Positions 4,241-44,381 of a DNA stretch of 64,000 bases are shown piece after piece; the stretch's first letter is position 1, and every line of letters begins with the position of its first letter. The translations under genes were made by a program, and so were the position numbers. Source of the DNA: Spirochaetales bacterium (GTDB lineage Bacteria; Spirochaetota; Spirochaetia; Sphaerochaetales; Sphaerochaetaceae); the NCBI GenBank assembly GCA_017470995.1, contig JAFUXI010000034.1, forward strand, positions 1 to 64,000. The letters are read 5' to 3'. Under the pieces are notes generated by a model. That model worked only from the letters and a program-made list of their open reading frames with translations. It was not told the origin of the DNA and did not search any database.

Positions 4241-6387
4241 CAGTTCTGTCCTCCCATTCTCTCGATTCTTTCCTTCACTATCTCAGGCATCTCCACCTTG
4301 GGGGCGTTGGGATGCAGCAGCCAGGTGGCTGCATAGTGGGTATCCGAAATGCGGAACATCGGCGGCTGCTCCTCGAAATCTATCTCCATTGCATACTTGT
4401 TACGTGCAGCAAAGGCATCGCCCTTCGGCGGATAAATCATGTTGGGAGGAGTTCCGGGGATGGATTCCAGCTTGTTTCCCTTGCTGTTGAGATCCGGAAT
4501 CGATGCCAGAAGAGCCCATGTGTACGGATGTGCAGGATGGTAGAAGACATCCTCGCTGGTTCCGTATTCGACGATCTTTCCGGCATACATGACGGCGATT
4601 CTGTCGGCCATATTGGCAACGACACCCAGATCGTGGGTGATGAAGATGACGGACAGGTCCCTCTCCTTCTTGAGCTTGTTGATCAGTTCCAGGATCTGGG
4701 CCTGAATGGTCACATCAAGGGCTGTGGTGGGCTCGTCACAGATCAGGATGTCCGGATTGGCCGTAAGTGCGATGGCAATGACGATTCTCTGTCTCATTCC
4801 GCCCGAGAACTCGAACGGATACTGGCGGTATCTCTTTCTGGCCTCGGTGATTCCGACCTGCTCCATGACCCTGATGGCCCTGTCCTTTGCCAGCGATTTG
4901 GTAATGACACGGAACGATGCCATTGCGGTCTCGCGCATCCAGCTGACGAAAGCCTCCGTGCGCTTGTCAAAGTCATAGGCCCTGGCTACGGTAAGCTGCT
5001 GCTCGTACTGGGATACCATGTTGTCCAGGATCTTGATAATGTTGGCCTGAACCAGCGAAAGATCCGAAAGCGAAAGCGGGGCAACTGCTTCTTCCGGAGC
5101 CTTGCCCTTGGCCTCAAGACGCGCATAGCGTGCACTCTGGCGATCAAAACGCTTCTGCTCGGCAACGTTTCTGACAATATCGTCATAGTAGACGGTCATG
5201 GCAGAAGTCAGGCTCACGCGGAAGGTGTACGAGAAGCTGTCCTTGACTGTCTCGAACGGGTCAATTCCGGCCTCGACCTTATCGGAAAGCTCCTTGGCAA
5301 GCTTGGTGGCCTCTGCTCTCTCCGGCATTGCGGAGGAAAGTTTTGAAGAAGCCTCACGCAGGGCCTTGATTGCATTCTCCATGCCCTCGACGGACTTCTT
5401 TGCTGAGGCTATCAGGGCTCCCTTGATATCGCTCTTGAAACCCATCATGAACTGGTTGTTCACAAAAGGCTGTGCCTTTGCATTCAGCTCTGCGGAATTC
5501 TCGTCTCCGAGGGTATTGTTTCCAAGAACCAGATAGCAGCCTAGTGCGAAGAAATCGGGGCTTTCGTTCTCAAGAGCCTTCCGGAGCAAATCCCTTCCCT
5601 TCTCCACCTGAGCTTTGAGGGAATCGAATTTCTTGCTCTTTGCGCTCTCATGTGCAGCCTTCTCCATGGCGGAGATTATGCTCTTCATCTCTGCTTCGTC
5701 GCGGACCACAAAGCGGTCTACGGAGGCACGGAAATACTCGGCAAGCTCCCTGGTCTCTGCGACGGGATTGGCTACCGCATCCTTGGAAATGGAAAGCAGC
5801 ATGTCCTCTGCAGCCTTCAGTCCGCCCTCTGCGTTTGAACGGGCCTGTGAGTACGGAGCTTCATACTTGGACTGCTGTCCTATGATTTTCTTGAAGGTGT
5901 CGAAACGCTTGTCGTCATCGCCGCCCTTGGTTTCCTTCATCACGCTATCCAGCTTCCTGAAGATGGCATTGAGCTTCTTTCTGCTCTCGCGCCTGTTCGC
6001 CTTGTTCTTCAGAAGCATGGCCTCGGTGATCTGGTTTCCGATTCTCATGACCGGATTGAGGCTTGAAAGCGGATCCTGGAAGATCATCGAGATCTTGTCT
6101 CCGCGAATCTCATGGTAGTCGTCCTCGCTGATCTTCAGAAGGTCCTTGCCGTCATAGAGGATCTCACCGCTCTCGATGATGGTGTTTCCTGCCGATATTC
6201 CGAGGATGGTCTTGCTGGTTGCGCTCTTTCCGGATCCGGATTCACCGACTATGGCCAATGTCTCGCCTTTGTAGAGGTCAAAGGAGATGTTGCGCACGGC
6301 CTGCAGCTTTCCGTTGATGGTCCTGAACGAGATCGTCAGGTCCTTTACCTGGAGTTTCTTCTCTCTTGTGTCCATTTCAGTGCTCAT
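4240..6387 (-). CDS. oppD: oligopeptide ABC transporter ATPase OppD with a very large internal insertion
   Basis: The ends are ordinary OppD: Walker A GESGSGKS at 48-55, Q-loop Gln104 in FQDPLSSLNP, signature SGGMRQR at 528-534, Walker B/DEP at 547-553 and a C-terminal oligopeptide extension. In normal OppD the Q-loop and signature are about 65-70 residues apart. Here they are about 424 apart, so roughly 350 extra residues sit in the helical subdomain (about 127-490). The insert is charged, Ala/Lys/Glu-rich and mostly helical, with little hydrophobic sequence, so it should be cytosolic. Total length is 715 residues against about 330-350. The frame is intact across the insert, and the gene overlaps oppC by four bases and oppF by one. 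The insert's function is unknown. Confidence 0.9.
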   Translation of the reverse strand: MSTEMDTREKKLQVKDLTISFRTINGKLQAVRNISFDLYKGETLAIVGESGSGKSATSKTILGISAGNTIIESGEILYDGKDLLKISEDDYHEIRGDKISMIFQDPLSSLNPVMRIGNQITEAMLLKNKANRRESRKKLNAIFRKLDSVMKETKGGDDDKRFDTFKKIIGQQSKYEAPYSQARSNAEGGLKAAEDMLLSISKDAVANPVAETRELAEYFRASVDRFVVRDEAEMKSIISAMEKAAHESAKSKKFDSLKAQVEKGRDLLRKALENESPDFFALGCYLVLGNNTLGDENSAELNAKAQPFVNNQFMMGFKSDIKGALIASAKKSVEGMENAIKALREASSKLSSAMPERAEATKLAKELSDKVEAGIDPFETVKDSFSYTFRVSLTSAMTVYYDDIVRNVAEQKRFDRQSARYARLEAKGKAPEEAVAPLSLSDLSLVQANIIKILDNMVSQYEQQLTVARAYDFDKRTEAFVSWMRETAMASFRVITKSLAKDRAIRVMEQVGITEARKRYRQYPFEFSGGMRQRIVIAIALTANPDILICDEPTTALDVTIQAQILELINKLKKERDLSVIFITHDLGVVANMADRIAVMYAGKIVEYGTSEDVFYHPAHPYTWALLASIPDLNSKGNKLESIPGTPPNMIYPPKGDAFAARNKYAMEIDFEEQPPMFRISDTHYAATWLLHPNAPKVEMPEIVKERIERMGGQN

Positions 6388-7925
6388 TCGTCAGCTCCTC
6401 TAAGTGCAGGGTTGAATGCATCCCTGAGTCCGTTTCCGAACAGGTTGAACGACACCTCCAGAAGCGCTATGAACAACGCCGGGAAGAAGATGATATGCGG
6501 ATAGGTGGCCAGATAGTCCTTTCCGTTGGCAAGCATGGTTCCCACGCTTGTCATGGTGGAGCTGTCCAGATTGATGATGCCCAGGTATGTGAGGCTGGAC
6601 TCGCTGAAGATGACTCCCGGGATTACCAGGACACAGCCTGTGATCAGGGTTCCGAGCGAGTTCGGGAAGATGTGCTTGAACATCAGGCGCCTGTCGCTTG
6701 CTCCCAGGGTTCTGGCGGCAAGGACATACTCATGGTGCTTGAATCTGTAGAACTGCATTCGCACGCGGGAGGCCATTCCGATCCACCCCGTCACCACGAA
6801 GGCGAACAGAAGGCTCCAGACAGGACCTACTTTCTTTGCCAGATGCAGCTGGAACAGTGTGGCCACGACCATGAACGGGACCTCGACCAGAATGTCGCTG
6901 ATTCTTTCCATGATCAGGTCTGCAACTCCTCCGTAGTAGCCTTCGATTGCACCGTAGATGGAGCCTAGGAACAGGTTGATCATGGAGATGCACACTGCAA
7001 AGATCAGCGAGAATCTGGCTCCCGAGGCAAGGCGCGTGAAGATGTCCTGACCCAGGGAGTTTGTTCCGAAGAGGAACAGCGGCTCAAAGCCGTAGCGGTA
7101 CTCGAAATAGGTGTACTTGAAGATTCTGCACTTGTAGGAAATGGCGGACGAATCACCCGTGATGATGGCATAACGATATCTCTTGGCGGCATTGATATCG
7201 TCTTTTCCGGGGTCACCTTCGATTCTCAGGGAATCGTAGTTGCCGTCGTTGCCGCTTGTCTTGTATGCCGGGACAAGTTCGCCGTCCTTGAGAATCGCAG
7301 CGCCCTTGGCATTGGATTCATACCAGATGTTGGCATCGCTGACGTTCTTGAGGGTGACGGCGGGATAGATTATCTGCTTGCCCGTCTGGTCCTGCCAGGC
7401 CTGGATGTCCTCGTACTGGCTCTGTGTCAGGGTCATGTAGATGAATCCGTTGGCGGTGTAGCTGTCCAGCTTGACATCATAGAGGGTTTTTCCGGTATCC
7501 GAGACATCGGTTCCATAGAACTTATGCACGACATCGTATCCGGTTTCCTTCTCTATGGCATTGTAGTAGATGTAGTTGGTATCGGTGAGCTCTACACGCT
7601 TGCAGCCGTCCCATCCGAGCCAGGAAAAGAGCCTGGACTTGGGCAGAAGCTTGGTGTAGGTCAGGTATGTGGTGTCCGTCAGGGCTCTCGTGTAGTTGTT
7701 CAGTCCGGCAAACGGAGCGATGATGGCATAGAGGATCAGCAGCGCGATGATGATTGCAGCTGCAATGGAGCTCTTGTTCTTGCGGAATCGGTTCCAGGCA
7801 TCGCCGAAATAACCAATCTGCTTGGTCTTGAACTTCTCGTCACTCTCCGAGCGGTTGTTTGTGAAGCGGAACTTCTCTGCCGGAATCTCGGGGAAACTGG
7901 TTTTCATATCATCAATACTTGCCAT
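6384..7925 (-). CDS. oppC: oligopeptide ABC transporter permease OppC with a large external insertion
   Basis: Residues 52-72 form the first membrane helix. The permease core resumes at FGTNSLGQD (286-294) and continues through the five-helix domain, including the ATPase-contact motif (AARTLGASDRR followed by FKHIFPNSL). Normal OppC has about 50 residues between these two points; here there are about 210. The extra roughly 160-190 residues (about 80-280) are polar, Tyr/Asp-rich and lack membrane helices, so they should face the periplasm, where OppA docks. The protein is 513 residues against about 300 for the family. It overlaps oppB by 14 bases and oppD by four. Confidence 0.9.
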   Translation of the reverse strand: MASIDDMKTSFPEIPAEKFRFTNNRSESDEKFKTKQIGYFGDAWNRFRKNKSSIAAAIIIALLILYAIIAPFAGLNNYTRALTDTTYLTYTKLLPKSRLFSWLGWDGCKRVELTDTNYIYYNAIEKETGYDVVHKFYGTDVSDTGKTLYDVKLDSYTANGFIYMTLTQSQYEDIQAWQDQTGKQIIYPAVTLKNVSDANIWYESNAKGAAILKDGELVPAYKTSGNDGNYDSLRIEGDPGKDDINAAKRYRYAIITGDSSAISYKCRIFKYTYFEYRYGFEPLFLFGTNSLGQDIFTRLASGARFSLIFAVCISMINLFLGSIYGAIEGYYGGVADLIMERISDILVEVPFMVVATLFQLHLAKKVGPVWSLLFAFVVTGWIGMASRVRMQFYRFKHHEYVLAARTLGASDRRLMFKHIFPNSLGTLITGCVLVIPGVIFSESSLTYLGIINLDSSTMTSVGTMLANGKDYLATYPHIIFFPALFIALLEVSFNLFGNGLRDAFNPALRGADE

Positions 7926-36220: not shown

Positions 36221-36252
36221 AAGGGCTGCCGGAAATGACAGCCCTTTTCTTC
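36221..36252 (+). terminator. intrinsic terminator of the lipoprotein/beta-barrel operon
   Basis: An 8-bp stem (AAGGGCTG with CAGCCCTT) with a 10-base loop is followed by TTCTTCTT, 21 bases after the stop codon. Confidence 0.75.
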
Positions 36253-36332
36253 TTCGCCTGTTGAACTCCACGAAACGTAGGTTGCCATACAACAACCCGT
36301 CTGCTACGCTGATGCCGAAAACGGAGATGAAT

Positions 36333-36932
36333 ATGGATAACTATGTAACTGGATCCCTGATAAAGAAGCTCAGGGAGAACAAACAACTTACCCAGGAGGA
36401 GCTGGCAGAAAGAGTCTGTGTCAGCAGCAAGGCAATCAGCAAGTGGGAAACCGGTAGAGGCTTCCCGGATATCGGGCTGATAGAGCCCCTTGCAAAGGCC
36501 CTCGGTATTTCCGTGGTCGAACTGCTTACGGGTGTGGACATAACAAACAAGAACAGGTCCTCCGACATGAAGAAATGCAAATTCTACGTCTGCCCGGTCT
36601 GCGGAAATGCCATACAGGCCACAGGCGAGGCTGTCATGAGCTGCTGTGGCATCACACTACCCCCACTGGAGGCGGAAGAAGATGATTGTGAGCACCCCAT
36701 AGGCATTGAGATCATCGAGGACGAATACTACGTCACCGTGGACCATCCGATGACAAAGACCCACTACATCTCTTTCCTTGCAGCGGTATCTGACCAGACA
36801 GTCCAGTTTACGAAACTCTATCCGGAGGGGGATGCAGCCACGCGCTTCAAGATCAACCGGGTTGAACGCATCTACGCATACTGCAACCGTCACGGACTGT
36901 TTGGACTGGACCTGAGAAAGAAAAGGAAGTGA
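36333..36932 (+). CDS. XRE-family regulator fused to a complete desulfoferrodoxin
   Basis: Residues 8-63 form an XRE helix-turn-helix (IKKLRENKQLTQEELAERV, then SSKAISKWETGRG). The rest aligns with class I superoxide reductase. A desulforedoxin-type iron site is formed by Cys87, Cys90, Cys104 and Cys105 (CPVCGN followed by CCG). The reductase iron site has His121, His138, His144, Cys184 and His187 (HPMTKTH and CNRHG). All expected ligands of both centres are present. The start at 36333 has GGAG six bases upstream. The simplest idea is a one-component sensor in which superoxide, oxygen or iron status alters DNA binding. Residual reductase activity is also possible. There is no obvious target gene next to it. 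Confidence 0.8.
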   Translation: MDNYVTGSLIKKLRENKQLTQEELAERVCVSSKAISKWETGRGFPDIGLIEPLAKALGISVVELLTGVDITNKNRSSDMKKCKFYVCPVCGNAIQATGEAVMSCCGITLPPLEAEEDDCEHPIGIEIIEDEYYVTVDHPMTKTHYISFLAAVSDQTVQFTKLYPEGDAATRFKINRVERIYAYCNRHGLFGLDLRKKRK

Positions 36933-36938
36933 TAGGCT

Positions 36939-36975
36939 TTCTACCAAATTACGGGTTTTTTCGTAATTGGTAGAA
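36939..36975 (+). terminator. hairpin after the XRE-desulfoferrodoxin gene
   Basis: TTCTACCAAATTACG pairs with CGTAATTGGTAGAA (one bulged A) and is followed by a T-rich tail. It can serve as the terminator of the upstream gene. It is also the first element of the TTCTAC repeat cluster. Confidence 0.6.
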
Positions 36976-37132
36976 TCTTTTTCTACAAAAAAGGCCGATA
37001 CCATTCAAATTGGCTGAATTTTTTGCTTTTTCAAACAGGACTTTCTACAAAAACATTGGGGCTTCCTTGTTTCGGTAGAAACTTCATCCCTAAATTTCTA
37101 CCAATTTCTACCTTTTTCCTGTTTTTGTAGAA
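36939..37132. repeat. cluster of eight TTCTAC/GTAGAA repeats
   Basis: The hexamer TTCTAC occurs at 36939, 36981, 37043, 37096 and 37106. Its complement GTAGAA occurs at 36970, 37075 and 37127. Longer matches exist: TTCTACCAA occurs at 36939 and 37096, with its complement at 36967. TTCTACAAAAAC (37043) is exactly complementary to 37121-37132. The stretch has no coding potential and is AT-rich. It lies between a regulator gene and the tRNA array. Its function is unknown; folding, recombination or protein binding are all possible. Confidence 0.7.
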
Positions 37133-37164: not shown

Positions 37165-37207
37165 AAAAGCAAAGGGACCAGAATTGCTTCTGATCCCTTT
37201 TGCTTTT
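37165..37207 (-). terminator. terminator of tRNA-Ser(CGA)
   Basis: A long nearly perfect inverted repeat (AAAAGC-AAAGGGACCAGAA against its complement) directly follows the tRNA 3' end and ends in TTTT on the minus strand. It could also act on transcripts from the other side. Confidence 0.65.
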
Positions 37208-37295
37208 CGGAGTGATAGGGATTCGAACCCTAGGTGAGGACGAGCCCCACACCAGATTTCGAGTCTGGCTCCTTCGACCACTCGGACATCGCTCC
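37208..37295 (-). tRNA. tRNA-Ser (anticodon CGA)
   Basis: An 88-base class II tRNA with a long variable arm. The anticodon loop CTCGAAA is closed by CCAGA/TCTGG, which gives anticodon CGA and reads UCG. Discriminator is G and CCA is not encoded. The acceptor stem has a C5-A68 mismatch (GGAGCGA against TCACTCC), shared with tRNA-Ser(GCT) at 37570. Confidence 0.95.
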
Positions 37296-37305
37296 AACGT
37301 TGTGC

Positions 37306-37334
37306 ATTATCACCATATTTTGCCTTCGTGTCAA
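37306..37334 (-). promoter_or_regulatory. promoter of tRNA-Ser(CGA)
   Basis: Minus-strand TTGACA (37329-37334), 17 bases, GATAAT (37306-37311). It is divergent from the tRNA promoter at 37361-37389. Confidence 0.7.
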
Positions 37335-37360
37335 ACGCTGTAAAGCTCTTAGAACATCTA

Positions 37361-37389
37361 TTGACAAAGAATAGAACTATCATTATGTT
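37361..37389 (+). promoter_or_regulatory. promoter of the rightward tRNA array
   Basis: TTGACA (37361-37366), 17 bases, TATGTT (37384-37389), about 12 bases before tRNA-Ser(TGA). Confidence 0.65.
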
Positions 37390-37401
37390 TTAAAGGCTAT
37401 T

Positions 37402-37486
37402 GGATGGATGGCCGAGTGGTCGAAGGCGGCGGTCTTGAAAACCGTTGAGGTGCAAGCCTCCGGGGGTTCGAATCCCTCTCCATCCG
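37402..37486 (+). tRNA. tRNA-Ser (anticodon TGA)
   Basis: An 85-base class II tRNA. The acceptor GGATGGA/TCCATCC pairs fully. The loop CTTGAAA gives anticodon TGA and reads UCA and UCG. Discriminator is G and CCA is not encoded. Confidence 0.95.
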
Positions 37487-37569
37487 TCCTTGGTAACATT
37501 GGGGCCGTGGGGTTCAGCAGGCCGGATTCTGATCCAGCCGTATCCCACAACCACAATGGACCAATAGTT

Positions 37570-37656
37570 GGAGCGATGGCCGAGCGGTCGAAGGCGCTTC
37601 CCTGCTAAGGAAGTATACTGGTAACGGTATCCGGGGTTCAAATCCCCGTCACTCCG
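37570..37656 (+). tRNA. tRNA-Ser (anticodon GCT)
   Basis: An 87-base class II tRNA. The anticodon loop CTGCTAA reads AGC/AGU. The acceptor has a C5-A68 mismatch like tRNA-Ser(CGA). Probably co-transcribed with tRNA-Ser(TGA), since no terminator is clear between them. Confidence 0.95.
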
Positions 37657-37667
37657 AATCGCGCAAA

Positions 37668-37698
37668 GCCATTGGGAAACCAGTGGCGTTGTGTTTTT
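37668..37698 (+). terminator. terminator after tRNA-Ser(GCT)
   Basis: An 8-bp stem (GCCATTGG with CCAGTGGC, one G-T pair) closed by a GAAA tetraloop, followed by GTTGTGTTTTT. Confidence 0.7.
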
Positions 37699-37717
37699 AA
37701 TAGAGCATTGAGTGAAG

Positions 37718-37738
37718 GGGCAAGTCCTCGTCACTCAA
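37718..37738 (+). other. degenerate copy of a tRNA-Ser 3' end
   Basis: GGCAAGTCCTCGTCACTCAA matches the T-arm and acceptor end of tRNA-Ser(GCT) at 14 of about 19 positions. There is no 5' half. It may be a remnant of duplication or of site-specific integration. Confidence 0.35.
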
Positions 37739-37745
37739 ACAAAAT

Positions 37746-37819
37746 GAGGTTGTAGCTCAGCTGGATAGAGCATCAGATTGCGGATCTGAGGGTCAGAAGT
37801 TCGAATCTTCCCAGCCTCG
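37746..37819 (+). tRNA. tRNA-Arg (anticodon GCG)
   Basis: A 74-base tRNA with full cloverleaf. The acceptor is GAGGTTG/CAGCCTC with one G-T pair. The anticodon stem TCAGA/TCTGA closes loop TTGCGGA, giving GCG, which reads CGC and possibly CGU. Most bacteria use ACG (inosine) for this box, so the anticodon is unusual. Confidence 0.9.
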
Positions 37820-37822
37820 AAC

Positions 37823-44279: not shown

Positions 44280-44292
44280 CATTCTGTTATTT

Positions 44293-44378
44293 GGAGAGAT
44301 GTCCGAGTGGTCGAAGGTGCACGATTGGAAGTCGTGTAAGGTCAAAAGCCTTCCGGGGTTCGAATCCCCGTCTCTCCG
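44293..44378 (+). tRNA. tRNA-Ser (anticodon GGA)
   Basis: An 86-base class II tRNA with fully paired acceptor GGAGAGA/TCTCTCC. The loop TTGGAAG gives anticodon GGA and reads UCC/UCU. Discriminator is G, with CCA not encoded. Only three bases separate it from the SRP RNA. Confidence 0.95.
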
Positions 44379-44381
44379 TCT

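Follow-up and report, generated by a model that had tools for sequence, protein, structure and literature searches.

The gene, its protein and its promoter

The window, by which we mean the whole stretch of 64,000 nucleotides analysed here from a Spirochaetales bacterium, carries on its forward strand a gene for a protein of 199 residues in which a helix-turn-helix (HTH) domain is followed by a desulforedoxin (Dx) module and a superoxide reductase (SOR) domain. The features of the locus, all of them on the forward strand, are the following.

36221–36246 (+): terminator-like hairpin, assigned to the upstream gene; TTTTCTTCTTC comes next (RNA fold −13.6 kcal/mol, z −2.5)
36267–36281 (+): operator palindrome TCCACGAAACGTAGG, core CYACG-NNN-CGTRG, dyad centre at 36274 (~−43), matched with 0 mismatches
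36282–36310 (+): promoter, with −35 TTGCCA at 36282–36287, a 17-nt spacer and extended −10 TG-C-TACGCT at 36302–36310 (comparative; exact operator-plus-promoter match)
36323–36326 (+): ribosome-binding site GGAG, read from the sequence
36333–36932 (+): HTH-Dx-SOR gene, 199 aa, MDNYVTGS...RKKRK (ORF translation, Pfam, NCBIfam, phmmer, AF2)
36351–36530 (+): XRE helix-turn-helix domain, residues 7–66 (Pfam HTH_3)
36591–36647 (+): desulforedoxin Cys4 site, Cys87, Cys90, Cys104 and Cys105 (family alignment)
36687–36692 (+): Cys119-Glu120, replacing the SOR catalytic pair Glu47-Lys48 (alignment)
36693–36893 (+): SOR iron centre II ligands His121, His138, His144, Cys184 and His187 (alignment)
36939–36984 (+): hairpin (36939–36975) and T-rich tail, terminator-like, just past the stop codon (RNA fold −17 kcal/mol, z −6.6)

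The preliminary description had read this gene as a helix-turn-helix regulator fused to a superoxide reductase, with four cysteines in one metal site and four histidines and one cysteine in the other, and this was borne out by Pfam, phmmer and an AF2 model. Pfam HTH_3 matched residues 10–64 (E 5e-14), which correspond to the N-terminal helix-turn-helix; the Desulfoferrodox family PF01880 scored 26.1 bits against a Pfam cut-off of 22.2, and the NCBIfam desulfoferrodoxin model TIGR00320 matched residues 81–190 with an E-value of 9e-12, under its equivalog cut-off. When phmmer was run against solved desulfoferrodoxins, every ligand was aligned (1dfx, E 3e-8). The AF2 model, obtained with 52 family members, has a mean pLDDT of 90.8 and a pTM of 0.69; in the PDB it is closest to superoxide reductases (E 1e-9, TM by target 0.69–0.78), and its N-terminus matches the P22 c2/434 fold of phage-type repressors. 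At the level of sequence and predicted fold, it is thus confirmed that the protein consists of an XRE helix-turn-helix, a Cys4 desulforedoxin and an SOR domain with all the His4Cys1 ligands. The Cys4 site, the His4Cys1 site and the fold are common to desulfoferrodoxin, the class I 2Fe-SOR (1DFX, 2JI1); however, the window protein has an extra HTH, has Glu47-Lys48 replaced, and is ~26% identical over the matched region. Likewise, the HTH fold is shared with the XRE/CI-type repressors (P22 c2, 434 and lambda CI), whereas the C-terminal half is a metal-binding SOR domain and not LexA/CI peptidase-like.

The start of the gene was set by the conserved N-terminus M-D-x-Y-[VI]-T-G. A TTG at 36261 was rejected as the start on two grounds: translation from there would begin upstream of the operator and the promoter, and 36333 is where the conserved N-terminus begins. 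Since a generic sigma-70 scan of the window called no promoter for this gene, the promoter assignment rests on comparative evidence, and transcription is predicted to start near 36317. The hairpin 3' of the gene was not called by a terminator pattern scanner; judged from their folding, the two hairpins that flank the gene (36221–36246 and 36939–36975) suggest that it is probably transcribed as a single-gene unit. The region directly 3' of the gene (window 37207–37820) holds clustered genes for tRNA-Ser (cga, tga, gct) and tRNA-Arg (gcg), and an additional tRNA-Ser (gga) occupies 44292–44380.

The fused family and its metal sites

In 2011 SORGOdb defined an HTH-Dx-SOR class of 19 proteins with an N-terminal HTH, a desulforedoxin and SOR centre II, and suggested that multi-domain SORs imply a new function (PMC3116461). 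The window protein has the same domain order as this class (PMC3116461), i.e., an N-terminal helix-turn-helix, a CXXC...CC desulforedoxin module and a centre II of four His and one Cys; the second-sphere pair Glu47-Lys48 that marks a functional SOR is Cys119-Glu120 in this protein. The text that SORGOdb gives for the class (PMC3116461) covers neither function nor operator nor catalytic residues; the loss of the lysine, the own operator, the FMN-reductase target in three species and the single fused clade are additions made here. In the open-access literature no characterised HTH-SOR protein was found, the SORGOdb listing standing alone. TrtA, an XRE protein of Treponema denticola, was set aside as a different kind of protein, since it has 104 aa and a tail without resemblance to any known domain.

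A degenerate-pattern scan, with one genome per species, confirmed at least 576 relatives of the C-terminal domain; the best 80 of these were fetched, and an HTH was present in all those with sufficient upstream sequence. Fused-type matches, defined by length and score, were counted by hand in 63 of the 291 genomes of one clostridial class, and 29 of these 63 had no second SOR match (also a hand count). Spirochaetes as a phylum rarely have the fused form beyond the window genus and a few Treponema-type genomes; one cultured carrier from the rumen is Treponema bryantii (L051 and L068). By this sampling, in which many genomes are incomplete metagenome assemblies and the fetched sequences are biased to close relatives, HTH-Dx-SOR is common in Clostridia and patchy among rumen-type Treponema and Spirochaetes. 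The search for the domain pair across genomes that had been proposed at the outset found it widespread, but not new, since it was catalogued in 2011. In a 200-row tree the fused proteins form one clade (support 100/100), and the spirochaete members are scattered at several places among the Bacillota, which suggests repeated transfer; the inner forks of this tree are weak because it is built on 119 columns. Two members of the fused clade (L191 and L198) apparently have no HTH domain, possibly through secondary loss or a split. The genome of the window also encodes a canonical SOR with EKH, as well as a second HTH-Dx-SOR protein (L033:6571–7200, G000 contig C79) that is 53% identical in the SOR part; the gene of the latter starts just 3' of a probable iron-dependent alcohol dehydrogenase gene (5392–6546).

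The ligand set given in the preliminary description is not a product of chance, as the identical residues are conserved over 148 fused homologues. Among these, H69 is present in 148/148, C116 in 142, H75 in 141, H49 in 133 and H119 in 128, the full HHHCH set being found in 118; in the main clade H49, H69, H75 and C116 occur in 106/106. The desulforedoxin site, covered by 146 fused proteins, reads CCCC in 138 and CCCH in 8. Residues S36, K37, W38 and E39 of the HTH are invariant in 52 diverse members. In one paralogue (L165:2950–3603, G097) the Cys4 site is a Cys-His variant, and Asp replaces the last SOR histidine.

The residues next to the iron have had a different fate. In the numbering of the D. 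baarsii SOR, the first iron ligand His49 comes directly after Glu47-Lys48; the catalytic role of both residues was reportedly the subject of a study by Lombard et al. in 2001, cited in PMC3116461. Lys48 is present in 5 of the 148 fused proteins versus 48 of 55 standalone domains (Fisher p 4e-33). The p value is descriptive, because the sequences are related and were counted as independent, and around Lys48 the alignment is prone to gaps. Of the 7 standalone exceptions, some belong to the fused clade but are truncated, decayed or without HTH, and the others are long-branch sequences. With the lysine gone in nearly the whole fused family, and Cys119-Glu120 in its place in the window protein, the initial term "complete superoxide reductase" was overstated. 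Given that the ligands were retained while Lys48 was dropped, selection kept the metal site and let go the substrate-steering residues.

About six divergent members (L251 and L264–L268) have lost four of the five SOR ligands and retain the Cys4 site; in four of the six there is an operator-like site that matches 10–11 of 13 positions, against ~8 in shuffled controls. Across the sequences compared, what the fused family has never given up is the Cys4 site together with the HTH. Selection on the metal ligands is supported, but the earlier argument that the metal sites still work because every ligand is kept is weakened by these divergent members, since they lose the SOR iron ligands, keep the Cys4 site and mostly keep the operator-like site.

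The operator and the genes that carry it

Shared operators and shared neighbours had both been named as checks in the preliminary description. Upstream of 78/78 fused genes (77 loci and the window) the palindrome TCYACG-NNN-CGTRGGT was found, with at least 12 of the 15 scored positions in each case and with C-Y-A-C-G paired with C-G-T-R-G in the dyad. An extended −10, TGNTANNNT, lies at a single fixed offset from the operator in 67 of the 78 upstream regions, whereas the start codon lies at a variable distance of 18 to 74 nt. When the −10 is placed at −12 to −7, the dyad centre falls at ~−43 and the operator abuts a −35 of the T[TA]G type, a position that we take to be like that of OR2 at PRM, where lambda CI is a class-II activator.

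The type of operator changes together with the HTH: proteins with ...KAVSKWE have CYAC-N5-GTRGG, those with NISDKTISKWE have CTACGnnnCGTTTATTG and those with xxxPKTVSKWE have TGTACGnnnnGTGGATTG; in this typing an "other" bin received some of the rows, in part because start codons were misassigned or contigs truncated. No operator was found at the C79 paralogue of the same genome, whose recognition region (GVSWDTVTKWE) has a different recognition helix. As the operator type tracks the HTH and the site is exclusive, self-binding is the simplest reading, and from its conservation, its exclusivity and its co-variation with the HTH we infer that the fused protein binds its own palindrome.

In the genome of the window (~81% complete) the palindrome has one exact match, at the HTH-Dx-SOR gene. 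Among the loci that have the strict core there is exactly one match per locus, and the exact operator plus promoter occurs once per genome, at the fused gene, in 36 of 50 clostridial genomes. Degenerate sites in these 50 genomes showed no excess over a reversed-pattern control, and 50 genomes without a detected fused gene gave zero exact matches and 4 with one mismatch. A broad regulon was rejected, since exact and near-exact searches of the genome of the window, of 17 spirochaete genomes and of 50 clostridial genomes showed no excess over the reversed-pattern control. Of the additional strict matches examined in other genomes, several Clostridia among them, two belong to paralogous HTH-Dx-SOR genes (L165 in G097 and the decayed L176 in G065); at the rest, neither a promoter nor a gene start was convincing. 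An 8-copy match in the genome of the window (GTACAAATGGTAGGTCCC...) was rejected as an operator, being a repeat mostly near contig ends. The repeat GTACAAATGGTAGGTCCCGGGTAAAAAAGAAGGCTGTAACCCT has at least 8 copies (G000 contigs C2, C3, C32, C40, C60, C69, C78 and C81), several of them at contig ends.

As for the neighbours, no recurrent operon partner of the fused genes was found; for acetyltransferases and an EamA-type transporter, recurrence is weak or limited to close relatives, metal-transport genes do not recur beside the fused genes, and in the searched genomes no operator was seen at such genes. The operator-promoter module was found at a gene for an FMN-reductase/flavodoxin-fold protein with a CxxCxxC-type motif in G001, G002 and G007 (L310, L307 and L306); these orthologues match 13–15 of 16 operator positions at the right geometry, versus 8–11 for other FMN_red genes. 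This gene is a credible second regulon member in these three sister species of the window genus. The genome of the window has no close orthologue of it, and therefore the predicted target of the window protein is its own gene alone. A regulator with almost no target besides itself is unusual. The early proposal that the protein is a DNA-binding regulator is thus favoured by the conserved operator of its own and by the change of operator type with the HTH; its control of genes, however, does not appear to be wide, the matches being confined to its own gene and one flavin reductase gene.

A possible metal-containing autoregulator and its alternatives

Considering this evidence, we lean with moderate confidence towards the HTH-Dx-SOR protein being a one-component, metal-containing autoregulator derived from SOR, which would sense through its metal sites and control mainly itself. 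Its ancestor would be a desulforedoxin-superoxide reductase of clostridial origin, to which an XRE DNA-binding domain was added. Desulfoferrodoxins are dimers, and with a dimeric desulfoferrodoxin fold two HTHs would sit on the palindrome; the protein would probably act in this form on CYACG-NNN-CGTRG beside its own −35. It is proposed that the Fe(Cys)4 site, joined in most members by the His4Cys SOR iron, alters DNA binding upon oxidation, loss of metal or binding of an oxidant (superoxide, O2 or a related species). As to the signal, the SOR iron may respond to superoxide or oxygen, the Cys4 metal may be oxidised or lost, or the cue may be metal supply; the identity of the metal, the dimerisation, the signal and the sign of control are points that we infer. 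The members without SOR ligands suggest that the device is centred on the Cys4 site, the SOR iron being an added input in most members. Sensing of superoxide is plausible, and the missing lysine would agree with a change of role from rapid turnover to sensing. Between self-activation and self-repression we slightly favour the former, because an operator just upstream of the −35, together with the extended −10, resembles the arrangement of lambda CI at OR2/PRM; a repressor could also act from this position.

The chief rival is that the protein is a "trigger enzyme", mainly a scavenger of superoxide or of another oxidant, whose HTH tunes only its own expression. The full HHHCH set in 118 of the 148 fused proteins could equally reflect retained enzyme activity; the near restriction of the operator to the own promoter and the absence of a second SOR match from 29 of the 63 clostridial genomes with a fused gene point the same way. 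Nevertheless, we consider it unlikely, given that the catalytic Lys48 is lost in 143/148, that the most divergent members are without iron ligands and several of them still have an operator-like site, and that the genome of the window already has a canonical EKH SOR. Somewhat less probable still is a regulator of metal availability, in which the Cys4 site would bind Zn or Fe and report metal status while the SOR core is a scaffold. The persistence of CCCC or CCCH in 146/146 fused proteins that cover the site, even in those without SOR ligands, speaks for such a role, but the main clade retains H49, H69, H75 and C116 in 106/106, and metal-transport genes are neither recurrent nearby nor seen to carry the operator.

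It is also conceivable, although highly improbable, that the palindrome belongs to another regulator and that the fused protein acts elsewhere; the palindrome is confined to HTH-Dx-SOR genes, is absent in exact form from genomes without a detected fused gene, and changes along with the HTH. That the fusion is non-functional or decaying, as occasional decayed copies such as L176 might indicate, has next to no likelihood in view of its conservation across phyla and the clear constraint on ligands, HTH and operator.

For the preferred autoregulator, a more specific version is quite possible, if somewhat short of an even chance: an SOR turned sensor in a widespread family of anaerobes, whose lysine-less iron would report superoxide or oxygen via an Fe(Cys)4-linked dimer to a lambda-CI-like promoter position, acting as a one-gene autoregulatory switch, with a flavin reductase occasionally recruited as well. 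SoxR, PerR, RsrR and the XRE-cupin regulators are, like the protein proposed here, one-component regulators with a sensor domain that binds a metal or cofactor; to our knowledge, their sensor folds are unrelated to SOR and none has an SOR domain. If sensing via the SOR iron is true, strict anaerobes would have an oxidant sensor of a new kind, and the family would show how an enzyme turns into a regulator while the intermediates persist. The domain pair has been known since 2011; what is new, as far as the open-access literature was searched, is the operator, along with the loss of the lysine, the regulon of one gene and the flavin-reductase target. The operator, the promoter geometry, the natural series of full, lysine-less and iron-ligand-less SOR domains, and the one other target make the role directly testable. 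In the few relatives with this target, the same protein would also act at the FMN-reductase gene. An unusual fusion occurs in Treponema-type genomes (L312, L313 and L328; G064 and G065), where proteins of ~550 residues join an FMN-reductase domain to a region that ends in probable membrane helices.
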